From Perkinsus olseni (Eukaryota > Perkinsozoa > Perkinsida > Perkinsidae), in the NCBI GenBank assembly GCA_013115135.1, contig JABANP010000079.1, positions 1 to 64,000 on the forward strand: 64,000 nt of DNA, in the 5' to 3' direction. The position numbers and the translations under genes were made by a program. How positions within the stretch are numbered: position 1 is the first letter of the stretch; every line of letters begins with the position of its first letter. Shown piece after piece: positions 26,169 to 57,700 of this stretch. The notes under the pieces are model-generated. The model had not been told where the DNA came from and searched no databases. It saw only the letters and a list, made by a program, of their open reading frames with translations.

Positions 26169-29100
26169 CTAGCGTGATGCTTGCACTACCTTCCGCTCTT
26201 CAGCGATCTCTCCAAGCTGCCTGAACCACTCGCCCAGTGAGGTGCCGTTCTCCACAGTAAACTCATAGCAGCCCTCCTGGACCCCTTTCGTCTTTATCAG
26301 TTCCAAGTCGTCCGAGGTTAGGATCTCCAGTGCCGGACTCTCGGTGTTAGACGCTCCTTCGGCCCGCGTGAAGCGTTGAGCAGCGAGCAAATAGTCGTAT
26401 AGCGCAGTCTTGCACAACATTTCAGTCGAGCTCGGATCGATTCCTTTGTGTATTGCGGGGTCTGGGAAGTGATTCTTGATGTCCCTCCATATGTCGCGGA
26501 GCTCGTACAAGCTGCCCCTGAAAAGAAGGCTTGTCAATCGACCGTGGAGGATCGGCACAGTGTATTCCTGTTAGTCCGCTCACAGCCGTTAAATAGCATG
26601 ACAGCGGAGTAAGTATCTCCATCGCGCTTAGTAACGATGATCCCTCTATAAACTGCTTATCAGAGCCTACCGTGGGGTGGTTATTTTGTTGATTCGGAAC
26701 TTTTTGCTCAGCTGGAGTGTATGCCTGAGGCGGCCAGAGCCTCCCTCTTCCGGAAGAACATTCTCGCCCTCAATAGTCAGACGGCAAAGTCCCGAGCCCT
26801 GAAACACCGTAGACAAGTGAAGGGGCTAACAGAATAACGATTAATTTCCCAGCAGGTTTAGGAAGCTAGGAGAAGTCACGGAACGCCGGCATGTACAGGA
26901 GAAGTCCCAGCCTAATCGACGACAGTCCTAGCCGCTTATCGTTTACATCTTTCAAATGGCGAAACAGTTTGATGCTGTCGTCTATGTCCGGGGTGCTTGT
27001 ATACATATTTTCAATGAGTATATCGGCTGTCAATGAGGACTTCTCCACCAAGTGTAGCCGTGGTTCTTTCTGGTCTCCCATTGCCTTCCACGACCCATCT
27101 CGCGACTCCATTTCTATTTGTTTCCACACCAGCAGAGACAGTTTTCGGTAGGTTCTTTCTCTTCTGCCGGTGTCAAGATACCGAACAGATCGCGTGACCA
27201 GGTCAACCAGTTGACTGTGACAGCTTTGTGAGACTTCTTCCTCCGAGGCAGTGTTATCGCTTGGATTGGAGGAGTGAAGGCGTAATGGTGTAACCACAGC
27301 ACTGAGAAGCAGCAACACTTCAAGCGTCGTCTCCATCTCTATCGAGAAAGATTAGCAATGCTCTTACGGGCGCATCGCGCAATCTGAGCCGTGGCAATGA
27401 TGCGTAAAATAACCGTTCTGAAAGTCATCGCGTGTTATGGCCATCTCATAGAAGGCATATTCCGGTGAAGCACCCATAGGGATGGGCTTGATCCTGATAC
27501 TGCATTCGAAGTCCTGAGGAGGTATTAACATCTTCTAGGCGCTTCTTGAATAGCCATTGGTCATTCAAGTAATATCCAATCGACTAGTCATTCGGACAGC
27601 GAGCGAATGACAGCAGAGGATAAGTCGAACACGCGACGGTAGAAGGCAGTGCGCTCCACTCACTGCGCGCTGGCCATATCCTTTCTCCTCATCAGTTGAT
27701 ATTTGCTCCCGTGTATCTTCGTACAGCCTATCGAGTTGTTCTTTCCACTGAATGAGGAGTTTGCCGTCGACGCCTCTATCCTCCCCGTTGTCGAGGGCAA
27801 TCAACGTTTTCCGCCCATTGGCCCATTCATGATTATCAGTGATACTTTCGGTAAGAGAGAAGCCGAAGCCAAGGTGCTCACTCATCCCTTTCAGACAGAC
27901 ATCAAGAAGGTCGTGATCTGCCTCTTGTAGCGGCTCCGAAATGCCGTCGAGTTCAAGCTTCGATGTAGGATACAAATTGAGCCTAAGGCAGAATGCCACC
28001 TCTAGGGCATATCCAACCGGAGCGTCTATTGCCGTATAGATCGATGAACGGAGCTAGAATCTCACTCTCCATCGCTGATCATCTTTATTTGCCTCCTTGT
28101 GGCGTCGTATTCGAAAGTGTAGTGGATATATAACGGCTCACCCTCCTCGTCGAGGTTGTCAGATCGGTACTCGTAGTTCAGCGCACAGTCAGTATTATCG
28201 AATGTCTGCGAAAAACAGCGGTTCAGCAAGGAATCAAGTGAAATTTCTTCGCTTTCGTAGTCAAGCGTGAGCTCAATCGATTTCTTGTAGTGGGATGAGA
28301 TTCACGCAACGGAAGGTGGTTCGATCATGGAAGGTGCAGACTTTGCACTACTGAGAACTGGTCGAGAAATGGAGTAAACAGTGATTGACATCAGAACGTG
28401 CTAGTTGTTGCTCACGTCTCCCTCCTACCGTTTTCACCTCCACCCAGTCATCGCTACTCTCCGATTGGGCCGCGGAGAACTCAGTATCTAGAACTCTCTC
28501 CAAGGCTGCGTTCTCCGTTGTGAAGTCAAATAAATTATCGCCTTGCTTGGCCTTCTCCAACTCGCGGACACTGACGATCGACTCATCCGTTTTCACTCTC
28601 ATGGACCTCCGAAGACTCGCTGACTTCGACCCGACTTGTTTGCCTCCAATTCTTCTACTCAAATATCCGTAGATCGCCTCTTTGCAATTTCGAGGCTGCT
28701 TGCTGGAGCTATCGAGAGACCGCCCCAATAGGGATTGCACGGTTTTCATCAGCCTCCACCTACAACAACGACGTTACGAGTCTTCGCGCAGCGGATTCTT
28801 TCGCCCTGTTGGGACGGGAAAATCTAAATGACCAAGATCCCAAGTTGATCGTAAGTGGGACGTGGCTCGATACACCCTCGAATCAACAGGCTTAATTCAA
28901 TTTGCGAGCTTACTCGTTCCTTCTAAACATTCGTACATCCCTCTTGTCATCAGTGAACTCTAGATAATAAGAGTTTCTACCAGCCGCAGAGTACTTCAAT
29001 GAGCATCTAGCTTCAGGCTCCTTAGGTAGAGAGCTCTGATCACGAACAACCTCACATCCACGCTGCTCTCGCAATGAACGTTCGCATCTCGAATGAGGGC

Positions 29101-29434
29101 AGAGAGGGACGTTTCACGACTCGTGATGCAGAGACTCCAGAGACTGATTGGGGAACCGAGGGAAAATATGCATGTTGACCTTCTTGGATGAGTATGATGA
29201 CGCAGGATACACGGGCTAAGAATCCCCGTCTTACCTTTCTTCTCCGACTGAAGAGGCCCTGAAAACGAAACAGGATACGTGACGAACTCTAGGAGGCCAC
29301 CTTGATGGTATCAGCGCCCGACGTGGCTACATGAAACCACCACCTCCACCTCGCCCCACCTGGCTTACCCTGATACTGTGTAGCCCATCACTGGGCATTA
29401 GGATGCTGAAGATGAGGGTGAGGCCAAAATACAT
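26169..29434 (-). CDS. Secreted repeat-family protein 1 (four repeats), unknown function
   Basis: First-exon signal peptide at 29434 ('MYFGLTLIFSILMPSDG') followed by donor GTAAGC. The mature part holds four copies of a two-part repeat. C-parts: about 29000-28919 ('CSLKYSAAGRNSYYLEFTDD'), 28230-28065 ('CALNYEYRS', 'IKMISDG'), 27525-27395 ('QDFECSIRI') and 26790-26690 ('GLCRLTIEGE', 'LQLSKKFRIN'). Each is followed by an intron and a helical N-part with a Cys-x-x-x-[LAV] and Tyr-Leu signature ('NCKEAIYGYLSRR', 'DVCLKGMSEHLGF', 'SCHSQLVDLV', 'MLCKTALYDYLLAAQRF'). Exon joins at the C/N boundary share phase 2. I recognise no known domain. Apparent signal peptides at 27336 and 26622 lie inside introns of this model. 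It ends at 26169 ('ERKVVQASR'). Confidence 0.7.
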
Positions 29435-29916
29435 CCCGGACTAAAAATGGCCCTGTGAAACCGAGTAGTTGATGAGAATCACGAAGAAACACGGCGTGCA
29501 AGCCAAGTCGTGGATAGGTGGGCTTGCGACCGCCGGCTCAACTCGCAATGTCCCTTCTGATCGCTAGGCGAGAGCATTGAGACGTTCTCACGCTCTCAGG
29601 CCTGTGACCTTCATATTGCGAATAAAGACTCCCCAACAGGGCGATTCCCAGAGTTCTGCTGGACGCAATGGAAGCTTACCGATCAGAGCTCGTACCAGGA
29701 GCTTTGCAAATCCCAGGACCCAAGAACGCAATCTCTCAGTCTTGTGGACATCAGCAAGAAGTAAGATACAGCAATGACAATGCGAGTAGATAAGTTTGGT
29801 ATTCCTCGCTGATTCACAGAGGGGAGAGAAGGGCCTTTGGCTCTGAATAATCTTCGAGCAAGAATGTGTCCACCTGAGCAACAACAAAAAAGCATGCCTC
29901 GAACTGAGAAGGTGTA
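29435..29916. promoter_or_regulatory. Upstream region of secreted repeat gene 1
   Basis: About 480 bases between two head-to-tail family members. No other gene is supported; it should contain the terminator of gene 2 and promoter of gene 1. Confidence 0.35.
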
Positions 29917-32615
29917 TCAAGGAGGAATTTGTGAGTCATACCCGAATTTGTGTAAATTCTCCCTTACTTTGCGAGCAATGGAGATGAGCTTTTTCATTGC
30001 AAGAGCGAAATCTAGGCTGGTGGTGGTGAACCGTCGCTCGGACTCCTCCTTGCACGACTCGGGGTCGAGCGTAGGAAATCGCTCGCTACTTGTTGACGTA
30101 GCAGCAGCAGCGGCAATCAAATACGCTATGTAAACTTGCTTGCACAGTTCTGATGTCGTCGTGACATTGCTAATCCCCAGCCGAGGGAATACCAATAGTT
30201 TTTGCAGCTCTGCCATGGATCCCTCTGGCTTATAGAATCTCATCCTAAGCGAGGAAGCCATCATGATGAATGCGTAGCATAGGGAGCCTTCCACTAGAGC
30301 GTGACGTTTCGAGTCTTACTCCTCTCCATGAATGTAGTTGATACCGAATGATTGGTTGAGTCCAAGGGCATATTGCTGCCCAGATCGGCCGAACGCGGTG
30401 AAGTGACATACAGTGTCGTCCTGAAGGGCGCCCGACGTTGAACGAAGGTGGAGGGAAGTGGAACCGAAGTGGAATGCCGCAAAGCCGGAGCCCGAAGTGT
30501 GTTTTCAAGAGAAGCTACTCAGCATGCTTACACGCATTAAAACCTGTCGTTGTATTCGAAAATGTTTCTTCCGATCAGGGTCAACTTCCATGGCCTCCAT
30601 GGTCTGCACTATGAGCTTGCTAGCTAAACTACTCGGATGAAGTTGATATAGCCTTGGATCATTTTCCCAAGATGAAATCGCCTTCCATGCGGGCTCCAGC
30701 TCCAATTGTTTTGCTCCGTACCGAGCTAAGCCGAGAGGTGTTTGAGGCCTTGTCGCGTTGCTTGAACGGCTTTTCAGTGTTTCTATGAGCTTCTTCTGAC
30801 AACTGTCGGCTTTCTCGCTCTCTCGAGGGGATGAACTCGGAAGAAGTACGTAGATTCCCCACGATTGCTGGACCAACCTGAAAAGCTGGGCCAGGTGCGC
30901 CCTAGTCGGTGATTTTCCAGTCTGAGTTGTGTGGCATGCTCGACCGGTTGACAGAGTCTCAGAAGCGTACTCACGGCTTTAGGAAATTGACGTCATCCTC
31001 GCTGGAAAAGTAAGCCTCAATAAAGCCATTTTTCTTCACAGCAAGCCCGTAATGGCCGTTGAATCTGTGTTGGTTCGATTGGGTTGAGAATCGAGCAATA
31101 CAATCGAGGTCCTGAGCGGGAATGACAACACTCGAGAGCCGAAGGCGATCGTCTGGAGTAGATATCACACAAGTAGGAGTCTTACGGATCTCATGAAGTA
31201 TCCAGAGATGGATCCTTCTTTCATAAAGTTGGAGATCTTCCTGTACAGGACTTCCAGACTTGACTCCCATTCCTTTAATATACCGGTATTCACTGCACTG
31301 TCGTCGTGTTCAGCCAACCCTTCCACAGTTTGCCGGATCTCCTCTTCGGAATAAGGAGTCGAATGACCAGTCTCGAGCTCGCTCGCAGAATGCAGCCATC
31401 GAGCTAAGGTTTCATCGCAGCAGCATCTTTCTCCCTGACCGCCGCCGTCAGTCAACTTGAATCTGCGGCTCTCTTCTACTCCCCAGAAGGGTCCTGGATA
31501 AAGTGAGAGTCTGACATAGCAGAGTTGTGATCTGAGCAAAGGGTGCTGGACCAGCTTACATGCCGTCACTTAGGCTTTCAATATAGTTGGAATCCGCTCG
31601 ACACTGGAGGCGGTATTCAGCCGGGATCCATTCATTCTTCGCGTCACCTCCACACACGATCTGGTTGAACTTGTATACTAGAGAATGTGCATTGGGGTCA
31701 ACTACCTGCGAGGAGTTCAGTGATTTCAACCACCTACGCGCCGAGTTCGAAGGCATACCGCGGAGATAGATTTCCCTTGTTCTAGGATCGTTCCGCTGGC
31801 TTCTTCGAACAAGATGCCAAGAAGGTGGTCAAGAAATCCCGATTCAACTGCTGTGAATATCCCATTTTTTCCACGGTCTAGCCTCTTCAAAGTGGTAGAC
31901 GCTCGTTTTTTCTTGTGCTCTGGTGTCTCCGGTGGGAGATGCATAGGTCCAGGCTTGGGAACAGTCTTGTCCAGGTCAACACCTCTATGTAGGTAGCTGC
32001 TCAAGGCTTGTTCGCACTTTTTCGGATGCTTAGACAATGAGAATACTGAGCGATCTGTGAAGTAATCCGTGGGTATCAGCCTCAGCCTGTCAGCAAAAAC
32101 CATGCCTCGTAATGGCAAAGCGTCTCGATGGGCGTGATGGGAGAGCACCTACTCGTTCCTGCGGAAGAGTTCTATCCTTCGATAATCTGGGGCAAGCTCG
32201 AGGTAAAAGTCAGTTGGTCCTATTAGACGCAGTCCACATTTCTTGGGGAGCCTGAGCACCCGAAACACCACTATACATCGTCATCACAAGCCGGGTTCGG
32301 ATGAATGAGCGGGAAGAACATCTTTTTGGGGCTCACGTTTTTATTGCCTCGGCTGCCGCGCGAACCCTGAGACAGAATGCTTTCACTGTTCTTGCAACCG
32401 CCAATCTGCACCGATCAACCAACTCTACGCCGTATGCGAATCATTAATAGCGTTCATCGTAATTTTGGAACTAGGCGAGGGTTGGAAAAGTGTGATGGTA
32501 CTTCGTGTAGCCCTGAAAGTTACAGTCTCACTTTTTTCAGCTTGGATCCACTGCTAAGCTCGAATGGTCCAAAGATGGAGAGGAGCACGAATGCTTTGAG
32601 AAGCGGCTTGGACAT
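29917..32615 (-). CDS. Secreted repeat-family protein 2 (four repeats), unknown function
   Basis: Signal peptide exon at 32615 ('MSKPLLKAFVLLSIFGPFEL') ending 'SGSKLKK' at donor GTGAGA. Four repeats follow. C-parts: about 32265-32165 ('CGLRLIGPTDFYLELAPDYR', 'IELFRRNE'), 31745-31560 ('YRLQCRADSNYIESLSDG'), 31155-30975 ('QDLDCIARFS', 'YGLAVKKNGFIEAYFSSED') and 30460-30350 ('CHFTAFGRSGQQYALGLNQS'). N-parts: 'LRLIPTDYF' with 'KKCEQALSSYLHRGV'; 'LSLYPGPFWG' with 'CCCDETLARWLHSA'; 'IYVLLPSSSP' with 'DSCQKKLIETLK'; 'MRFYKPEGSMAEL' with 'ELCKQVYIAYLIAAA'. Introns after each C-part fall in the same place as in gene 1. The repeat order matches gene 1 one to one, so the two are recent tandem duplicates. 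Function unknown. Confidence 0.7.
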
Positions 32616-32875
32616 GAGGGATGGCTACTGCAGAGGTGGGTCGCATCAGAGTGGCTTCAGTCTCTTATCGGGAGCGTTGCTCCAAGGCCCACTTTATTAG
32701 TAGTACAAGAGTCACGCGAAGTACACACAGCGACAGCACATGGCATACATCATGATAAACGGTGTAAAACCTTTACAACGGAGATCTAGCTTCAGATTAC
32801 GACAACCGAACTTCTAAGCATACTAATTCCTTCTACCAACGAATTCAGCGAACGTTCAAACGTCAGTCGAAACGA

Positions 32876-33881
32876 TTACACGACATCTCCTTCCGGCTCA
32901 GTCTCGGCCGTCCGTTGAGCCCTCGGGGGCTCAATCGAGACTTCTGGCATTCTTCCATCGTCCACGGTTCCTCCGAGCTGTTCGAAGAGGGCATCCAGCG
33001 CCGGTCTCATGAACGTGCTGTATGTCAGGTCGATGACGCCCGGGTCTTTGTAGCCCGATAGGACGCGCGAAATCCTCTGGGCAGGATCCATGGCATTCTC
33101 TACGCGGAATGTCTCCCTGCTGGTCAAGTCTTTGGAAGCGGTCGAAAGAACGTGGCCCAATGCCGCACCGCAATCGACTCTATTTTCCTCTGGTATGTTC
33201 CACGACGAACTCAGCTCGCCTTCTGAAGGGCGTTCCAAAACTTGCCTGAAAAATTCATCACTTGAAACTGACTCGACCCTCCAGTTCGCTGGGATCAGCC
33301 TACTCAGCTCTCTCCATTCTCTGTATTCCGTCTAAAGTCGGCGTGAGTTCAAGATAGATAGCAGGTTGGTTAGACGATTTATCCATAAGCAAGGCGCATA
33401 CGGGCTGAATATAGAAGCGAGGAGACGTAGTTCCGTGCGGCCATCAGTGTTTTGACGCACCTTGCCCGTCTCGTGAGACGAAGGTCTTTTTTCCCCATCC
33501 TTGTTGCCACTTATGCGCTAAATTGTCTTACTCAATCGCTGAAAAGAGAGAGGTCGGCCGGGGCTTCCGAGTCCAAACGGCAATGGCATGCTATCGCAAC
33601 GAAACTCTGGCTCAGTCCCTTCGAGGGAGCCGAGGCTCTGCTCAGAGTTCGACTTCAGACTCGCCAAGCCGTTCATCTTCTTATGGAGTATTCCTATACG
33701 CCTCTCTCTCATCAATACTGGTGCAATGCATCGGCGGTTCTTCTCCATGGCCGGGGCGATATCATTCGAAACACCGCGAGTTCCCGCGTCTTACCTGGAC
33801 CTTCTTCCTCAGAGCGGCCGCTTCAGATTCAATCGCAGCCAGGATTCCAATGAAGATGATATTCAAGAAGGTGAATTGCAT
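32876..33881 (-). CDS. Secreted repeat-family protein 3 (single repeat), unknown function
   Basis: Short member of the same family. ATG at 33881 gives a clean signal peptide 'MQFTFLNIIFIGILAAIESE' then 'AALRKKVQ' at donor GTAAGA. One repeat follows: C-part about 33420-33320 ('CALLMDKSSNQPAIYLELTP', 'GIQRMERAE'), phase-2 intron, then N-part 'QVLERPSEGELSSSWNIP' with 'RVDCGAALGHVLSTA' and a C-terminal tail 'IEPPRAQRTAETEPEGDVV'. The region 33790-33440 may hold an extra coding exon ('RRIGILHKKMNGLASL') or a long intron. With one repeat it shows the minimal unit of the family. No known domain is recognised. Confidence 0.6.
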
Positions 33882-34296
33882 CGCGGAAGTACTGAAGTAC
33901 TGCCTATGAGTATCACTCCTTTCAATGGCTCCCCTGTTTCGTGGATTCCCGATGGAACGATTATTTCAGGTAAACTACCCCCTGTGTATGTGACAAAGCA
34001 AGAGATGTAGACACTTGAGTGTACACACGGTAGATTGATAAATTACAAGAACAGCACACAACTGGTTATCCTCAGCTCATGACATGGAGCTCACGCATCG
34101 ATCAGTCGGGCCACTCTGCATACAGCTATGTGATACATATGATATGAGGATAATCATTGGTGAGCTAGGGAGGTCTTAGCCTTCTCCAACCCAAGAACTC
34201 GGTCGAGGTATCGCGTAGTCGCCGTCCCTGTCAGCAGAAACACACGGGTCAATCACGGTAAGGAGAAACGAGAAGGCTGAACATCTAGCGCGAGAC

Positions 34297-37200
34297 TTAC
34301 TCGTCAGCGAGCATCTCTTTGGCCACCTTCCCGAGCACAGTTAGAAGCCTTCCCAGAGCTGAGCTGGCAGACACGTAGTAACGTCCAGCCTCGCGCTCAA
34401 TGATACCCTCAAGATTAATAAAACCAGGGCTTCCTCTTGGCAGCTCGTTAATGTATTTGGCTGCGGCTGGTAGCAGCCGAGTCGTCTCAAGATAGTAGAC
34501 AAAAGCAAGTTTGCAGAGCTCTGCTGTGTTCTTCCCGCTCGGTGTCCCATGGCCCATCAAATCCTCACTTGCCTCTGAGCTACTCTGTGAGGCCGTTCTT
34601 CCAGGAGGAGAGCTTGTGTCCCAGCGGCTATACCACCCAACTGATTTCAGATCCTGCTCGATTTTATCCACATTCACCATTACGGACCTGCAGCACGCCC
34701 GCATCCTAACTGATGGCAGCATGAATTCGAGGACGTACCCTTCGAGTCCAACAAATGCTAGCCTGAAAGAACGGTCGAGACCGACGCGGTAGCCTCCTTC
34801 ACTGTCCTTCATTCGCAGTTCGCAACGCGGATTCCTGGGGTCCCGGGCAAGGTTCTGCAAGATAGTCGACTACGTACCGAAGAGCAACCAGCAGTTTTCC
34901 TACCATTGCACTCATCTTCCCCAGCTCCTGTAGGTAATCTTCATTTCTGGTCAATCGCTGGGCGAGACCGAAGATAACGTCCGTGGTCAAATCCGAGTCA
35001 AGTGATTGGAATGCAGTTGGTCGACGAGCCTTCCAATCCAGCCGAGCCCAGTCATTTCTCGCTTCATTTGCGAGTTGCTGGTGAGCGAATCCTCGTAATT
35101 CGTCGAAGAGCAGCTGCGTCCGGCGTGGCTCTGGCATTGACTCCACGAGGTAATTCCATGAAGCGGCCAAGATCGTAGCAAGCTTGTACTCGCAGGACCC
35201 AGCCTCGGTGGTGGCGGAAGTCGACGAAATATGCGAACTTAGGTTCGGGATGACAGACGAAAGGGGTATGTTAATCCTGAAGGGTTCGAGGTGAGACATG
35301 GAGAATACAGTCAGTAATCAGTAGTGTGCTTCCAACGCATCAGTCAACTACGAAACCGGTTTGTTGGCGATGAGTTCGCTCTCTTACCGCGATGGAGGTT
35401 TATGTCGAGAGAGGATGGATACTGCGAGGAAAGCCTGATTGTTCTGCGCGATATCCAAATGTAGAATGACTCCAGCCGGAGAGGTATTCACCATCTTGTG
35501 TAGACTGCACTGTGTGTCCTGCAAACGACAATGCGGAATCGACGTGGCGGGGGTGACGTCAGAACACTACTTCATCCATGGAGTCTGCTCTCGAAGGATT
35601 AGCAACTGCTTTTTCCGCGAAGAGGCTATAGAGAGATAGCATACACTTGTGTATATCCTGGAGTATTCGAATGTCCAACGCTTTGTCATCAACGGCGTGA
35701 GATCCATCGGGCGTAGTTCTCATAGCAGTGAGGGTCGCCAGCATCCTTTGCCCATGATCCGGAACAACTGGCTCGTCCTTAGCGCGATGCCGGAGATATC
35801 CGATCCTCAAGAGAGTCGCTATCGCCGTAGGGCAGTCCTTGACGTAAGGCATTGAAATTACTCTATCGAGCTCATCACGCACATCCACTGTAGGCGTGAA
35901 TGATCTCTTGAAGAGTAATCTCATTCTAAACAGGAATCAGCTGCAGAAGTTACAGATCTGCCTATCGTGAGAGGGTGAAGCTATGCGCGTAGAATATGGA
36001 GAATCGGTGTTTACCTTCCGTCGCTGATCATGTTGATGCTCCCCGGGTAATAGCCCAAACGTAAAGGTCCCTTCAAATTATCCGGCGGACCCGTAACTTT
36101 GTAAGTAAACTCGCAGGTCTCTGTATCTAGCCCCTGAGAGGTACTAGATTCCAGGCTTTGTTATTAGAATCACAGAGACTAGAGGAGACGGCCTACCTCC
36201 CGCAAATCGATGGCGGTTTCTTTCCCGTACATGTTCTCGAATGCAAAACTAAGTGCTGCTAACGCACACTTATGGGCTCGGAATTGGGTGGAGGTCTGTC
36301 CCTTACGGGCCTTCTCAGTCGACACCACCATGGTCGGGTGTTTGCCGTTCAAGGCTGTTTTCTCTGCATCGCCGCATAACCATCTCATGGTGCTGCCCTT
36401 GGGGGAAAGGGAGTACTGTGTGCCATTAATGATATATTCATTTAAAGCATCCTCGCAGCTTCGAAGTTTTCCGTTCTTCGTAGATTCGCTAGCGACTCTG
36501 ATCACAGTGGAAGCTCTTCCTGCCTCTTCCGAGACTAGGGAGGAGACTATCATGGTGCTGAAGAGACGGCATCAATCGAGCGAGTGGTTGACGCGTCATG
36601 GAAAAGCCTACGAATCTTTCCGGAAGCTCAGTAGCCGACCCTCATTTGGATCTAATACGAGATGGAAGTCTCCTGCATCGCCAGTACCATGAAGAACGCA
36701 TTGCCGGGGTGGAAACTGATCAACAACGGATGGATGACATCGATGGGTGAGCGAACAAGGGGACTCACCGAGCGAACGACGGCCCTCTTGCCCGCGAGAA
36801 CCTCCTCGACTTCCTTGTATAAGTCCTCTATTATTGGGCACAGTGAGTCGTGCTCGGACAGATCGAACAACATGAAGCGATTGTTGTACGGAGTGGAGCG
36901 AATGGCCTCAAGTCGCTTCATGGCCACCTCCGGTGAGATGAGACGCTTCATCTCGCAGTTGGCCGTTGAAGCTGTCCGATGCTCTCCGATATGAACGCCC
37001 ATTTTCAAGATGCTCTCGAACGCTTGAAGACATCCTTCCGGCTGCGGGTCGATAATGACAACATTGGGGTTCTCTTCTATTGGCAATGCGTCGTAACTAA
37101 CGACGGCACGTAATTATATATCCTCAAAGACTCTCGAAAACGTCGGCCTTTTTCGGACCACTGCTCAGCATCCACCCCGGTCGAGATGTTGAGATACTGG

Positions 37201-37610
37201 GGCCCCTTCCTTACGTGCCAAATTGGAACATTTCGATGCGGGTACGGTCCGAGGTGAGCTGCAAGTAGTAGGAGTTCGGGCCAGCCGTTGAGTTGATAGT
37301 GTAGGAGGCAGCACAGGTGTCGGGCTCGGGCTCCACTGCCTGACTTAAAGCACTTAAAACTTCGATGAGTGACGACATTCAGGACGCTGTCATCACCTGA
37401 GCTTTTGATCTTGTTCTTGACCTCAGCGAACGTAGAGACCTGCCTATGGATCTGCCTAGGGATTTGCGCAGGGAGTTGGCGGCTTTCTGAGTCGGACCAG
37501 CATCTCAATAGTGTCTTAGGCAAATCGCTTACCTTCATCGACGACCCTAGCACCTCGTCGTAGCGCTGCAGACTCAGGAGTAGACCAAAGGTGAATGATA
37601 GACGCCGCAT
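34297..37610 (-). CDS. Secreted repeat-family protein 4 (five repeats), unknown function
   Basis: Longest member. The likely signal peptide starts at 37610 ('MRRLSFTFGLLLSLQRYDEV') and ends at donor GTAAGC. Five repeats: C-parts at about 37375-37215 ('CAASYTINSTAGPNSYYLQL', 'RIEMFQFG'), 36720-36620 ('CVLHGTGDAGDFHLVLDPNE'), 36150-36015 ('CEFTYKVTGPP', 'INMISDG'), 35560-35410 ('CSLHKMVNTSPAGVILHLDI') and 34860-34730 ('CELRMKDSEGGYRVGLDRSF'). N-parts include 'PEGCLQAFESILKMG', 'LRSCEDALNEYI', 'DCPTAIATLLRIGYL', 'GSCEYKLATILAASWNYL' and 'ELCKLAFVYYLETTRLL'. Introns separate C- and N-parts as in the neighbours. The protein ends 'LGKVAKEMLADE' at 34297. It is divergent to the proteasome gene. No function is assigned. 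Confidence 0.7.
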
Positions 37611-42215: not shown

Positions 42216-43921
42216 ATGTTACTCAATTATCATTCTCCCTTCCTTCTTATCCTCCCCAGTTGGGGACAACACTGTGATCAACATCAACTACAGTACTCTG
42301 TTCTAGAGGACTGTCCAACCTCCCATCCAGACAGCAGCCATATCAGCATCTTTGCTGAGAGGCTTCCTGACGTGGGTGCCTGCGAAGTAACTCTACCCGC
42401 ACTATCCGCAGTCCGGAGAGGGCCTCGTCCAGGTCCCAGACCCACTGCATGGCGTGCCCTGCGATGTACGCTGCGAGAAAGGGGAGTTTTATACAGGCCT
42501 TCTGGTCAATCGCCATATTGAGGGTCGATGTGTCAAGTGCCAGAGCGGCCAGTGAGTCGTGGTGGATAGGAAAGGTCGGTGACGATTTCCGCTCGATAGA
42601 TACAGCGTGGGCGGAGGCAAAGTGTTGACGAACTGGGTGCCATCGAAAGCACACCCTTCCATGAAAAGCTGGTGTGTCCATTCTCTCGAGTTTGGGTACG
42701 GATGGGCCATTGGGGAATCCTGGGTGCCGTACAGGGTCAACACTAGCACGGACAATAACAGCAGCAGCGAGAGATGTAACTATCGACATGGGTGTCGTGC
42801 GGTAATGGTAGTCCTAGCAGGCATGTCATGGGTTGCGAGTGAGGACGGCGAAGTGGTGTACTCCGGCGAGAACTACGGCAACCCAGATATCGACAGCGTC
42901 CTCAGACTGCAGGACAATTGGCTCAGCGATGGAGAGGCCCGCTTCGTGTATATGGTAATAGCGGGCTGTGGGCATCGGTAGACCAACGACGCACAGGTTG
43001 ACGGCGAGGACGAATTTGACGGTTTTCGGTTCATGGTTGACGGGGTGATGATGCTAGGCCCCGAGTACACCACCGTTGATGATGATGGTAATCTCGTTTG
43101 GAAGGAGGTGAGGTCCTTGAGGCGGCTGTGCCCCATCGCTGTCATAGGGAAGTGTGTCGTTGGAGGCCGGGCCGCACACGTTGGAGTGGGTCTACTCTAA
43201 AGATATGTCGGAGGACTATGGCTACGACCGAGCTTGGATACGGTCTATAGAGCTCCTAGGGACCCGGACGGTAGATCTCGAGTGCCTCCCCTGTCCACCC
43301 GGTGACCAACGTGGGTCCTTTGTCCCGCCTCCTTCGGGGCGCAACCCTCCTCAGGGCTGCTGACGAGTACCGTAAGGGAGCAGTGCCTGTTCTGCGGGAG
43401 GGATGAGTATCCAGATCACAACACTAGTGTGTGCCAGCAGTGCCCTCCTGGACAGTAGGTGTCGCCATGCTTTTCCACGATGCTTTAGTCGGCCGCAGGT
43501 ACGCAGCTCCAGGGGACTCCTCATGCTCTGTAAGGCCCCCGTGCACAGCCGAGGACTATTCTATACAGTACTCGGACTGTGACGCGGCGACGTGGAAGAG
43601 AACGGTACCTCTACCTTCACTTTCTGCTACACCACCACCAATGCGGGCATAGGGACGCTACGGCTGGTCATCTCCAATCGTCTGCGATTCCCAACTGCCC
43701 GAGAGTGTCCCTCTTCCTACCGAGACGATAACGACGGCCTGCGAGGATTGCCCTACAGGGAGCTATCTGGACCCCCAGGAAGGCAGGTGTATCCGGTAAC
43801 TCTAGGGGCTATACACCCGTCGTCACACCACCTTGCAGTCCTCAGGTGCCCGGCTGAGGTGGGCAAGATCGCTACAGCGCAGGGCTGTAGACGCTATCCG
43901 CACGCTATCCACGCTATCTAA
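42216..43921 (+). CDS. ELAPOR/EIG121-like cysteine-rich secreted protein, short form
   Basis: Resembles the extracellular region of animal ELAPOR1/2 (EIG121, KIAA1324), membrane proteins with ephrin-receptor-like Cys modules that cycle through late endosomes. A hydrophobic start 'MLLNYHSPFLLILPSWG' could be a signal peptide. Matches in family order are 'VRCEKGEFYTG', 'GRCVKCQSGQ', 'GMSWVASEDGEVVYSGENYG', 'DEFDGFRFMVDGVMML', 'SLEAGPHTLEWVYSKDMSED', 'DRAWIRSIELLGT', 'LECLPCPPG', 'CSVRPPCTAEDYSIQYSDCD' and 'ACEDCPTGSYLDPQEGRC'. Animal proteins are about 1000 residues with a C-terminal transmembrane helix; here the readable part is about 500 residues and no membrane helix is seen before the convergent gene at 43.93 kb, so it may be truncated or secreted. 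Exon joins are only partly resolved. Confidence 0.6.
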
Positions 43922-44070: not shown

Positions 44071-47005
44071 TCACGCTTCAAGAGACTTACCGGAGCCTCC
44101 ACGCGGTGGTGGTGGCCAGCGGTCCCTTCCAGGCATTGGAGGGGCATTTGGTGGGGGTGGGGGAGGGACAGGACAGCTGGCCGGGGTGGCATAGCGACCA
44201 AAGTTGGAGCCCACAGGAGGCGGGGGAGCACTTCCGCTGCATGTGTAATAGCTCGACGGTGGGCGCGGTGTGAGTATTGCATATGAGCCGGCTTGGGATG
44301 ACCAGCCTCTTTGGTACTCATCAGACCATTGCCCCGGGCAACCCGTATTGGGGCCCTCGGAATCTCGCCAAGCTGGGATCCGGTTGTCCACCACGGGATG
44401 TGCCGTCGATCGGGACCAGCCACCACTGTGATAATAGCTCTTCGTTGAGGCCCCCCTACCACTACTGGGTGTATTCCTCCCGCCGCGATCCGCCATCGGA
44501 TCAGGGGGAGGCGGAGCCCCGGCCGGTGAGGTACTGGGCTGGAGGACAACCTTGCCATCGCTACCTCCGACGGATTGTGGACCGGCCCTGTCCTCACTCG
44601 CTGTGCCAGAGCTCTCCATAGGGACAGGGGCCGGAGGGGCGGGCAGGACCTTCTTCGGCGACAGTACAGGTGTAGCTGAAGTCCCGCTTCGTCTGCTGGT
44701 CGACCCCGCCCGGCTACTAGTGTGGCAAGACCGTGATCTGTGTCGTCTAGTGCCCCGGTGACTGCTGCGATGGTGAGAGGAGGAACCCCTCGAGGAGCGA
44801 TGCCTTCGACTCCGTTCTCGGGAAGACCGTTTGTCGTGGCGCCTAGAGGATGAGGATCGTCGACCCCGGCGGCTGCGGCTCCTCCCTCGAGCGTGCGGTG
44901 ATGCTCTGTTCGACCGGCTGCGCTTCGGCGACTGAGAAGTTGGTCCAGCTCCTCTGCCGACAACTTTCTCAGAAGCTGAGGGCTCGCCAGTGGAAGCTAC
45001 AGCAGTAGGCTGTCCGCTAGTGGGCCGGAGCGAGCTCGATGGCGCTTCTGCAGGCGGCTCTGCATTGCCACCTGGCGGTTCATCCCTCGGCTCCTCAACT
45101 GCCTCCATTTCCTCATTCACAGCGTTGCCTTCATCCCTCGGCTCCTCGACTTCATCCATGTCCTCAGTCACAGCGTTCCCTTCATCCCTCGGCTCCTCAA
45201 CTGCCTCCATGTCCTCATTCACAGCGTTCCCTTCATCCCTCGGCTCCTCGACTTCCTCCATGTCCTCGCCCACCCTCTTCCCTTCATCCCTCGGCTCCTC
45301 GACTGCCTCCATGTCCTCGCTCACCCCCTTCCCTTCATCCCTCGGCTCCTCGACTTCCTCCATGTCCTCGCTCACAACGTTGCCATCGCTCTGTACCACA
45401 GGCTCACAGCCGCCGCCTTCAACGTCCTCGGTCGTGCACAGAGCCGACTCGCCGGTGGAAGCCGATAAAAACGGCTCAGCAGCAGTACTCTCCTCGGCCT
45501 GGTGGAGGTGGCTAGGTGGAGCAGGACTCGAGGACTGTGCGGCATCCACGCCAGGTTCCATCTTTATTTTCGATGCTCTATCAACCCTCTCGAGCTTACA
45601 CTCAGTGAGAGCACGCCTAGCACGCCCCAATCCACGACATGCCGAAGTTGATCCCGCAGGCTCGCGTTTCACAAGTGGCGCCCTCGCCTGCACTCTCCGG
45701 GATACCTCTTCCTTGACCATCGCCGTAGAAGGGCCCTGATCCCCGACCGTTGTCTCCCTCGCCTGGGAGGGTTTCTCTCTCCTCGACCGAATGGTGGAGC
45801 CCTCGGCGAATGGGGATTCTCCTTCAGAATGCTGCTCAGTCCCCTCAGTTGACCCGCTTGCGTTTGACGGAGATGCCGGAAGGACCCGAGCTACAGCCGG
45901 TGGAAGGAAGGGAGGCTCATTCTCGTGTGCACCATGCTCTCCTGTGGAGGCAGTGCTACCAGTAGTACTCGAAGCCTCGACCGGCCTCAGTGCCGCTGCC
46001 CTCTTGGATTTCTTTCGAGTACCTTTCGCCCTCGCCTCCGGTTCCGGGGAACGGCGCCGTCTCCGCTTCCTGGGTCTGCTAGAGCCCTTTCCGCCTTTCT
46101 TTGAGCCCCTTCCTTCTCCCGCCGGCTGTGGCGCTGACTTCGACGCTTTGGCTTTCTCTCGGCGTTGGGTCTCTATTTCCCCGTCATCATCGCTAGGCGA
46201 GTCTTGTTGCGGATGCCGCTTTTGATACTTCATTATGCGGCTTACAATAAATGCCCTTTTACCCGTCGAACTGACACCAACCTCCTCACAGCACTTCCGC
46301 AGCTGCGGCAGACTCAGCTCATCCAGCTGCTGCCTCGTGAATGGTCGGACGAGATCCTCAAGGGGGCGCCGGCGACGCTGGAGGGGACGTCTGGATCCCC
46401 GCCGACCGCTGCGGGGCCTCTTCCTGAGGAGCCTCTGCCGTGGACGGCTGGTCCTCAGCGTTGTAGGTCTGCGGAAGAAACCAACGTCCCTGTCTAATGG
46501 TCGCCCCTCCACCTTGATACCAGCATGGACTCTCGAAACCCAACGGCTAGCTTCATCTGCTTCTTGTCCTTCAACGAATCAAAGCCGTGAACATGCTTCC
46601 CCAACCACACGCTGAGATGCCGGATACTGAGAAAAGATACCTGCTGCAGCGTAGCCAACCAGCTGCCCACCTCCTCTGGCCACACAAGTCCTTCACAGCC
46701 GGACAGCCTATGAAGACGTCCTCCGCTAAGCAGTGCTCATGCACGTACAAGGTTCGGACACCGTCAGCACTGAAGACATCCGAGGTCGGGTAACCGAGCC
46801 TCAGGCTGTGCTCCAGGATCTTCCGCCCGCATCCGCAGCAGCGAGTGTTACTGTGCTCCGGTTGGTCCACTGTGAAATACCATTTTTCTCGACTCCCGTC
46901 ATCTGGCGACTCGTAAAGAGTCCAGCATTCACGCCGGTCATCCCACTCGGCGTTGAAGACCGGCGAGGGCCTGGAAGACCCCACAGGGGCCTCAATGGCC
47001 GACAT
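44071..47005 (-). CDS. PARP-type zinc finger / SAP domain protein, disordered
   Basis: Probable nuclear DNA-binding protein. ATG at 47005 ('MSAIEAPVGSSRP') leads to a PARP-type zinc finger: 'CCGCGRKILEHSLRLGYP', then 'YVHEHC' (C-x2-C...H-x2-C), which in PARP1 and DNA ligase III senses DNA breaks. A second small block 'HLSVWLGKHVHGFDSL' and 'LAVGFRES' is shared with the downstream paralogue. A SAP motif follows ('LDELSLPQLRKCCEEVGVSS', 'GKRAFIVSRIM'). The rest is disordered: six acidic 20-residue repeats ('EDMEEVEEPRDEG'), an Arg/Ser-rich stretch and a Pro-rich end. The splice between the second block and SAP is ambiguous: an Arg-rich or an Ala/Pro-rich linker is possible. A donor GTAAGT near 44085 suggests a last exon ending at 43930 instead of the stop at 44071. 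Confidence 0.72.
45065..45375 (-). repeat. Coding tandem repeat, 60-bp units
   Basis: Six imperfect 60-base units inside the SAP-protein gene encode 'EDMEEVEEPRDEG' followed by variable 'KGVS', 'NAVN' or 'NAVT' residues. The length is a multiple of three, so copy number can change without breaking the frame. Confidence 0.9.
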
Positions 47006-54704: not shown

Positions 54705-57700
54705 TCAGAGCTGGAAGAGGAATCTTATGTCCTCCAGCGAGAGCCCCTCCAAACTGCCATCACCGTCTAATTATACCACGACACACTGCCCGCTTCTTGT
54801 CCTACGCTCAAGAACTATCGTCCAGTGCTGTTGCAGCAGTTGCTCACCTGTAACGCCACAATCCTTTCCTCTATGGTATCCTTGGTGACCATCTTCACGA
54901 CTTGAACCCGCTTGCTCTGTCCTAACCGATGAGCCCGCTGGGTGGCCTGCTGTTCGACTGCCGGGTTCCACCAAGGATCTGATAGAGGTATCATTGGTCA
55001 ACAGGCCATAACACCGGCGCCCGGGCTAATTTCATCGCGTCCCAATCGACATCCCAGCGACAGGCTATCAATTCTGTATCAGCGCATAGGTATATTCTTA
55101 AATGAGTTACCCACGGTGAGTACGCGGCTGTACAGCGCTCGTAGTTCCAAGTTACCGAAGGATCAGTAGAAATCCAGGCGGCCTGGCTCACCCAAGAGAA
55201 ATATATGATTCGCTGCTTGGAGGTTGAGGCCCTCCCCACCGGACATGAGGGATATCAGCAACAACGGACAGGTATCAGCGGGGGACTGACGAACGGAGAA
55301 TGAACGTGGATTATGCATCCACATATCTCACCTCGATGAAAGTCTTCATAACCTTGGAGCGTAGAGGCAGTGAGAGCTCGCCGTGGAGGATCTGAAGGGC
55401 CATTCAAGCAGAGACCTCACGGCACGGTCAGACTCACGAGTGTGGTGATGCCGGCTTTGTGGAGGCGGTACTGGCACAGCTCGAGTAGGGATACAAAGCA
55501 GGAGAAGACGAGCCTGAAACGTCACACCTACAGTGGGGTGGGGGAAAGAGTGAATTGATGAGAGCAGATCTGAAAACAGATCTCCGAGGACGGCTCCTCT
55601 TCTCTCTTGCGACCATTCTCGCTGTGTGGTAACAGATGCATCGCGGTAGTCAACATTCAACAGTCTGGCGACACGTCTAGTATATCACAGTCACCATCCC
55701 TCAGTGGTGACACGTCTAGTATATCACAGTCACCATTCCCTAAGCGTGGTGACACGTCTAGTATATCACAGTCACCATCCCTCAGTGGTGACACGTCTAG
55801 TATATCACAGTCACCATCCCTCAGTGGTGACACGTCTAGTATATCACAGTCACCATTCCTAAGCGTGGTGACACGTCTAGTATATCACAGTCACCATCCC
55901 TCAGTGGTGACACGTCTAGTATATCACAGTCACCATCCCTCAGTGGTGACACGTCTAGTATATCACAGTCACCATCCCTCAGTGGTGACACGTCTAGTAT
56001 ATCACAGTCACCATCCCTCAGTGTGGTGACACGTCTAGTATATCACAGTCACCATCCCTCAGTGTGGTGACACGTCTAGTATATCACAGTCACCATCCCT
56101 CAGTGTGGTGACACGTCTAGTATATCACAGTCACCATCCCTCAGTGTGGTGACACGTCTAGTATATCACAGTCACCATCCCTCAGTGGTGACACGTCTAG
56201 TATATCACAGTCACCATTCCTCAGTGGTGACACGTCTAGTATATCACAGTCGCCATTCCACAGTGTGGTGACACGTCTAGTATATCACAGTCACCATCCC
56301 TCAGTGGTGACACGTCTAGTATATCACAGTCACCATTCCACAGTGTGGTGACACGTCTAGTATATCACAGTCGCCATTCCTCAGTGCACGTCTACGCGTC
56401 GCGTAGTATATCAGAGTCACCATGAACATTCCACATTTCGTTATCACGAGTATGCAAGAATGAGAAATTGCAGCCCATGATCTATCATCACTCAGTCGTG
56501 CTAAATCCGGTAACCCCTGTGACTATGCAAACACCCAGAGTTGAGCATTGCCTACCCCTTCGCCTCTCCATCGGCCTTCCTCATAGCCTGCACCTCCGCG
56601 ACCAACCCTTCGATCTTCGATGAGCTCTCGAAGCTGGATATCGGTACTCTCTTCAAAATGCTAGCCTTGCGTGGCACTCTCGGGTCATTCTGCAGTTGCC
56701 GAAGGGCGACAGCCTCCACGATGCTGTCATCAGTCTCATCTTCCTCATCGCCACATAGGGGCTACGAAAAGGGCATTTCAGAAGAACAATCCGATGGGCG
56801 ATCTGGCATGCTCACATTGCCATACCACACCTCCAGCTGTTTCGACAAACCGGGCAGTACTGTCCTTGGAGACGGAGCCACGACTGCACGCAGGAACTGA
56901 GGAGAGTAGTGGTAAAACCGAGCGCACACTACTTACGATATCAGCCTTTATCGAAACGTGGAAAGAGGAATCACGAACGGGAAGCGCCTACCGTACTTAT
57001 GGAAGAGATGATCACACTTAGCCTTGGCGAGTGCCTGGCCGGCACATCCTGTTCGCGGAGGGATCTCCTGGTGGCAGATGCCCTGGCGAGAAAACAAGGT
57101 ACGACTGGACGAGCATAGCAGCTTGACAGCCCCCAAAGAGAAACCCGGATGACGTACACAGCTAATTTCCTTCTGTGCTCTATGTTCTATCAGGTACTTA
57201 TGGTTGGCCGCCTGAAAGGGAAAGTCCTAATGCACCGCGTACGGCCAACTGGAGTATCATTGGCCCACTTGGCGGAGACGCAAGATCATCTTCAGGGCCT
57301 CCACCACACGCTCAGCCAGCTCGCCTTTCTTCGCGTACTTCACAACTTGGGCGCGATACTTCTCATACTTCGCTTGATAGTACGCGGCCTCCGCAGCCGA
57401 CAACACTGAGCTGGCCGGCCTCTCCTCCATAGGGGGCAACTTCACATCGCTCTGCCGCTGGGCTTTGGTTCGTCTCAGCAGGAACTTCCCCAACAGCTGA
57501 GATCGTAACATCCGCATCCCCTCAGCTCCCTCAATGGATGTCAGGCCGGACCTGCAGAATACCAATAACCTGCTACCCATCAGGTCAGCGAGTTTGACGT
57601 ACTTCTGGATGGGCCGGGCGATGAAGCGATTGAAGTAGTTGTAGTGGGCGTGCTTCGAGTGTCCACACTCATGGCACTCGTCGTCCCAGGGATGATCCAA

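Follow-up and report, generated by a model that had tools for sequence, protein, structure and literature searches.

A tandem cluster of four genes built from a repeated two-exon unit in Perkinsus olseni

Gene models and exon pairs

Within a 64,000-nucleotide stretch of the Perkinsus olseni genome (assembly GCA_013115135.1, contig JABANP010000079.1, positions 1 to 64,000; hereafter the window), we analyzed a cluster of four minus-strand genes, D, C, B and A, which lie within 37610-26169, start at 37610, 33881, 32615 and 29434, and carry 5, 1, 4 and 4 copies, 14 in total, of one two-part unit. The observation of a tandem cluster built from a repeated unit, made in a first-pass annotation with these same genes and unit counts, was confirmed as real, while the interpretation attached to it was partly supported. 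The unit had been put at ~200 residues; the repeat itself stood, and its length came down to 126-168 residues by exon borders. In our gene models, each unit is a pair of exons, one for each part, with lengths of 89-146 bases for part one and 277-387 bases for part two, and each gene opens at its 5' end with a short exon that encodes a hydrophobic N-terminus and ends in phase 0 before the exon pairs begin. The models take in the first exons and the unit exons; tail exons may follow in D, B and A, and the long first introns may contain others.

In the models, the exon borders follow a uniform phase pattern. The motif cores were located first, after which at most nine of the nearest AGs and the donor-like GTs in the open frame were listed for each core. 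Past the core, 7 of 13 part-one exons had a single donor-like GT, which was in phase 2 in all seven cases; the remaining part-one exons had several donor-like GTs (4/13) or none at that score (2/13). These six donors and all acceptors were picked by pyrimidine tract and phase, and hence are not independent evidence. After these choices, all 13 part-one exons ran from phase 0 to phase 2 and 12 of 13 part-two exons from phase 2 to phase 0, the sole exception being the last unit of D, which ends in phase 2. Upon including the unit of gene C (C1), the modeled part-one exons ran from phase 0 to 2 in 14/14 cases, and the part-two exons with another unit after them from phase 2 to 0 in 10/10. The modules are, in these models, bounded by phase-0 introns and split internally by a phase-2 intron.

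The unit of gene C first appeared incomplete, and its part-one exon (33404-33304) was recovered later by scanning 570 bases upstream with the part-one profiles. This exon, which had played no role in setting the phase rule, begins in phase 0 at a CAG acceptor, ends in phase 2 at a GTAGGC donor, and encodes a Cys and the expected motif, here Y-L-E-L. Against three profiles without it in training, 2, 5 and 8 of 1000 shuffles scored equally high, the 2 of 1000 referring to a profile of four other part-one exons with which the exon had been picked, so that this is not an independent test. Because two of the three profiles had served to find the exon, we regard the phases of C1 as better evidence than its shuffle scores.

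The phases below are those just given unless stated otherwise. Exon 1 of gene D (37533-37610), with the start codon and an N-terminal hydrophobic segment that would make a weak signal peptide, ends in phase 0 at GTAAGC. It is followed by D1 (part one 37215-37339, part two 36769-37096), D2 (36612-36715, nearest to B1, and 36197-36557), D3 (36015-36133, nearest to A2, and 35571-35925, nearest to B2), D4 (35388-35518, without a clear partner in A or B, and 34904-35276, nearest to A3) and D5, the last unit, with part one at 34739-34854, nearest to B4, and part two at 34301-34687, which begins in phase 2 and ends in phase 2 at GTAAGT. The two D5 exons are separated by a predicted 51-base intron (34688-34738) that is by chance open in frame, and they replace an earlier reading of the open reading frame (ORF) 34300-34869 as one 190-residue exon. 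Gene C consists of exon 1 (33795-33881), whose encoded N-terminus is more hydrophobic than those of the other three genes, and of C1. Exon 1 ends in phase 0 at GTAAGA, and this end differs in a second copy of the region on contig C312; C1 has its part one at 33304-33404 and a part two (32879-33245) that begins in phase 2 and extends as far as the gene's stop codon.

Exon 1 of gene B (32532-32615) encodes a signal-peptide-like N-terminus and ends in phase 0 at GTGAGA. The exon pairs lie at 32153-32241 and 31759-32086 (B1), 31560-31705 and 31186-31510 (B2), 30975-31111 and 30532-30877 (B3), and 30320-30420 and 29968-30244 (B4), where the part-one acceptor of B1 is one of several, a better-looking one at 32251 being in another phase. 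Gene A likewise opens with an exon for a signal-peptide-like N-terminus (29369-29434), ending in phase 0 at GTAAGC, and continues with A1 (28914-29035 and 28429-28759), A2 (28066-28205 and 27664-27982), A3 (27368-27513 and 26947-27301) and A4 (26671-26798 and 26190-26517). The acceptor of A1 part one is uncertain (29035, 29020 or other phase-0 sites), that of A1 part two is at 28759 or 28753, and the frame of A4 part two continues to a stop at 26169-26171.

Relatedness of the units, the second copy and selection

A Cys had been claimed for each part of every unit, and we found it in 14/14 part-one and 14/14 part-two exons, with at least one in all 28 unit exons. In every part one except that of B2 (13 of 14), it falls among the first 11 residues; the first Cys of B2 comes later than in the other units. 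In an alignment of 26 exon rows, part-one rows fell on the part-two Cys; the 12 part-one rows and C1 were removed, and the remaining 13 rows were used instead.

To test homology between units, we scored each exon, along with 500 shuffles of it, against profiles trained on the other position classes only. Six of the 13 part-one exons and eight of the 14 part-two exons reached p ≤ 0.05, with combined p values of 1.3e-7 (part one) and 2.7e-9 (part two), both of which are too small, since class members are related. Weighing against a common origin, the other seven part-one exons and six part-two exons miss this level singly, and the profile-profile comparison was weak, with E ≥ 0.1 in 9 of 12 position-class pairs. 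Both results would fit a set of unrelated exons into which a pattern of Cys, aromatic residues and leucines had been read by eye, the singly failed test being a composition-matched one. We nevertheless hold such a coincidence to be highly improbable, and for A and B, as paralogues, it is largely refuted: it is contradicted by the phase-2 donor in all seven single-donor exons, by the positional paralogy of A and B, by the combined class-left-out test, and by the part-one exon of C1, which sat at the place and phase that the model required. Together, the class-left-out profiles and the uniform phases of the models indicate that the repeats are mutually homologous, with a homology among positions that appears faint but detectable.

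Upon comparing A with B, we found units at the same position to be closer than any off-position A-B pair, while the unit positions were far diverged from one another, indicating that whole genes would have been duplicated after the units arose. We suggest a history that starts with an ancestral four-unit gene, itself the product of an old duplication of exon pairs. This four-unit gene was probably duplicated whole, yielding A, B and D, and the simplest account of the five units of D is that a position-1-like unit was added there later; gene C would be a one-unit remnant or founder. The cluster had been proposed to expand by both gene and repeat duplication, and gene duplication is borne out, while the position-wise similarity of A and B speaks against recent repeat duplication as the main route.

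The second copy allowed us to examine constraint on the exons. Contig C312, at positions 1-43654, is collinear with 12-43888 of the window in three blocks of 93-95% identity; the collinearity ends at 43888 (70 kb of C312 compared). We take this copy to be either a second haplotype or a homeologue, with a segmental duplication as a further possibility; P. olseni is reportedly polyploid. All 26 exons compared in A, B and D retain their splice AG and GT in C312, and 25 of them are free of insertions and deletions (indels) between the copies, the A4 part-two exon having one extra base in C312; 6 of 23 introns carry indels of up to 41 bases. The synonymous and nonsynonymous proportions, counted over A, B and D with gene C excluded, were 0.074 and 0.011 for part one and 0.034 and 0.012 for part two, that is, ratios of nonsynonymous to synonymous proportions (pN/pS) of 0.14 and 0.34. 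From the kept splice sites, the few exon indels and the low pN/pS, we conclude that the frames are coding and under constraint. Purifying selection acts between the copies, with no sign of an arms race, in what is a weak test on two copies of one genome.

The copies also differ locally. In gene C of the C312 copy, inserted bases alter the end of the first exon, possibly through an assembly error, and at 33745-33810, the start of the first intron of C, C312 has extra bases, and a 37-base stretch there matches C312 on the opposite strand as well (an inverted repeat). The extra base in the last exon of gene A splits that exon over two frames in C312, and may be real or an assembly error. Between 26500 and 27000, the divergence of the copies jumps above that in the rest of the cluster, to 49 substitutions in 500 bases, and the 153-base intron between the two A4 exons differs by 31 substitutions; the peak at 26500-27000 may stem from gene conversion or from a third haplotype.

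Domain searches and proposed architecture

No known domain had been recognized in the pattern, and the Pfam scans agree. Pfam scans, run on single exons and not on spliced proteins, gave a best E of 0.038 for ten ORFs (13.8 bits against a curated cut-off of 25, with none above it), of 0.13 for 13 part-one exons (those of A, B and D) and of 0.036 for 14 part-two exons, the latter being a BTB hit in one member only. Against the PDB, sequence profiles built on provisional exon borders gave best E values of 0.45 and 0.39. In a protein database, no homologue emerged for the D5 exon at E ≤ 0.01 among 332 candidates, or for the part-two profile at E ≤ 0.1 among 1484; candidates were limited to 0.55-1.75 times the query length, a range that excludes full-length family proteins and does not imply their absence. 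As that database contains at least one P. olseni protein, annotated copies may well turn up as hypothetical proteins in a full-length search, and the novelty therefore lies in the domain rather than in the gene records. Titles and abstract openings in the literature named no such family, though most subscription journals were outside the search, so that it may already be published.

These E values make it rather unlikely, in our view, that the unit is a known domain, e.g., a protease inhibitor, a lectin or a disulphide-rich adhesion domain, that has diverged past profile detection. Profile methods do lose very divergent members, and a two-Cys module of strands plus helix is a common plan for such domains; furthermore, no confident model of a complete unit was obtained, and the D5 model used for the fold search was poor. 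Built on the contiguous ORF, this model includes 17 intron codons, and its part-one section had no aligned homologues. In both models that we obtained, a helix begins just ahead of the conserved part-two Cys and includes it (residues 110-125 with Cys 114 in D5; residues 22-37 with Cys 24 in B1). Part two had been described as helical and part one as strand-like: the two low-confidence models agree on a largely helical part two, while strands in part one appeared at low confidence only.

Across the genome, seven exon queries, one at E ≤ 0.001 and the rest at E ≤ 10, with only the best candidates scored, yielded no match of E < 0.01 beyond this locus on contigs C767 and C312, and the family thus appears, within this limited sensitivity, to be confined to one locus in the assembly. 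Weak matches of B3 part two on C555, C85, C883 and C214 (E 0.2-2.1) were unremarkable in a profile scan there. A search with a DNA motif marking where part one ends hit only the A2 exon, in both copies. When the window was scanned with the profiles, no ORF outside the known units scored above 6.4 bits for part one or 5.6 bits for part two.

Secretion was judged by hydropathy of the N-termini alone. Among 1044 ATG frames, 0.2% were as hydrophobic as the N-terminus of C, 4.0% as that of B and 3.6% as that of A; for D the figure was 13.5%, a weak N-terminus by this measure. A signal peptide had been assigned to every gene, and secretion-like N-termini hold for C, B and A, with secretion plausible for these three and weaker for D. 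The unit exons contain no membrane-like stretch, the highest 19-residue mean being 1.35.

From these features, we propose an architecture in which the first exon of a pair would provide a Cys followed by apparent short strands, and the second a further strand-like stretch, then a helix that has the second Cys close to its beginning and, at the C-terminus, another helix. The two Cys would bond, as the first-pass annotation had suggested, in a disulphide holding the strand layer against the helices, and such a clamp would make each module rigid and independent. Since units at equal positions of A and B match, each of the four modules has most likely kept its own surface. A string of modules would then act multivalently outside the cell, with presumed binding, location and partners. 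Judging from sequence and low-confidence models, it is quite conceivable, if short of an even chance, that the products are soluble, multivalent binding or bridging proteins outside the cell, at a wall, a matrix or a host interface, made of disulphide-clamped modules.

The secretion-like N-termini, the lack of membrane-like stretches, the multivalency and the purifying selection would fit equally well with a structural protein of the cell wall or the extracellular matrix, whose modules associate mutually and not with an outside ligand, and Perkinsus has walled stages. We consider this unlikely, as the copies are far diverged and many wall repeats are less so. More improbable still, to our judgment, is that the genes encode a host-facing family, as suggested in the first-pass annotation, of effectors or antigens engaged in an arms race. 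The parasitic genus, the secreted-looking N-termini in three of four genes and the tandem arrangement favor it, whereas pN/pS lies well below 1 between the copies (with the weakness of a two-copy test), all matches of E < 0.01 map to this locus (within the sensitivity given above), and housekeeping genes are found among the neighbors, in 4 of the 10 other window ORFs scanned (mitochondrial carrier, helicase, SNF2 and Ap4A phosphorylase; the other six were without a match).

Returning to extracellular binding or bridging modules, a more specific version, possible but doubtful in its entirety, would have the unit as a perkinsid-specific extracellular domain with its own fold, encoded by an exon pair with a fixed phase-2 intron, in an ancient array of four functionally distinct positions that was kept through whole-gene duplication. 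Both tandem secreted families of protist parasites and mosaics of symmetrical exons are known kinds, and parasite genomes often contain orphan secreted families. The cluster resembles the lineage-specific, tandem-duplicated secreted families of protist parasites in its tandem arrangement, its N-terminal signal-like exon and its repeated Cys-bearing domain without a Pfam match; by contrast, the single cluster found is small and lies near housekeeping genes, its two copies show purifying selection, and its modules are old and position-specific instead of recently expanded. Similarly, it shares with animal extracellular mosaic proteins a signal exon followed by phase-matched modules, which can be gained or lost without a change of frame. 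In animal mosaics, phase 1-1 exons predominate, whereas here the boundaries are in phase 0 with an internal phase-2 intron, and no Pfam domain was detected. If our proposal is true, Perkinsus, a genus of mollusc parasites, gains a defined, probably secreted family with testable domain borders, and the alveolates an example of modular exon-pair evolution in which array position, rather than gene, predicts similarity.

Surroundings of the cluster

The P. olseni protein FOZ61_009307 matches the ORF of the neighboring mitochondrial carrier at 96%, with 92% of the query covered. The internal transcribed spacer (ITS) primer PerkITS-85 had no match in the genome at ≤1 mismatch, and the ribosomal DNA array is perhaps missing from the assembly. 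With the consensus of the dinozoan spliced leader, we found 146 genomic matches (≤1 mismatch); spliced-leader sequences of this type are regularly spaced on C268, C41, C270 and C871, and the variable position is C in every exact match listed. Within the window, a minisatellite at 55666-56386 consists of ~18 copies of a 39-base unit with 94% matches. A 51-base tandem array lies at 45079-45381 and is overlapped by an 835-residue open frame (44074-46578, minus strand), which has no Pfam match at E ≤ 0.001.
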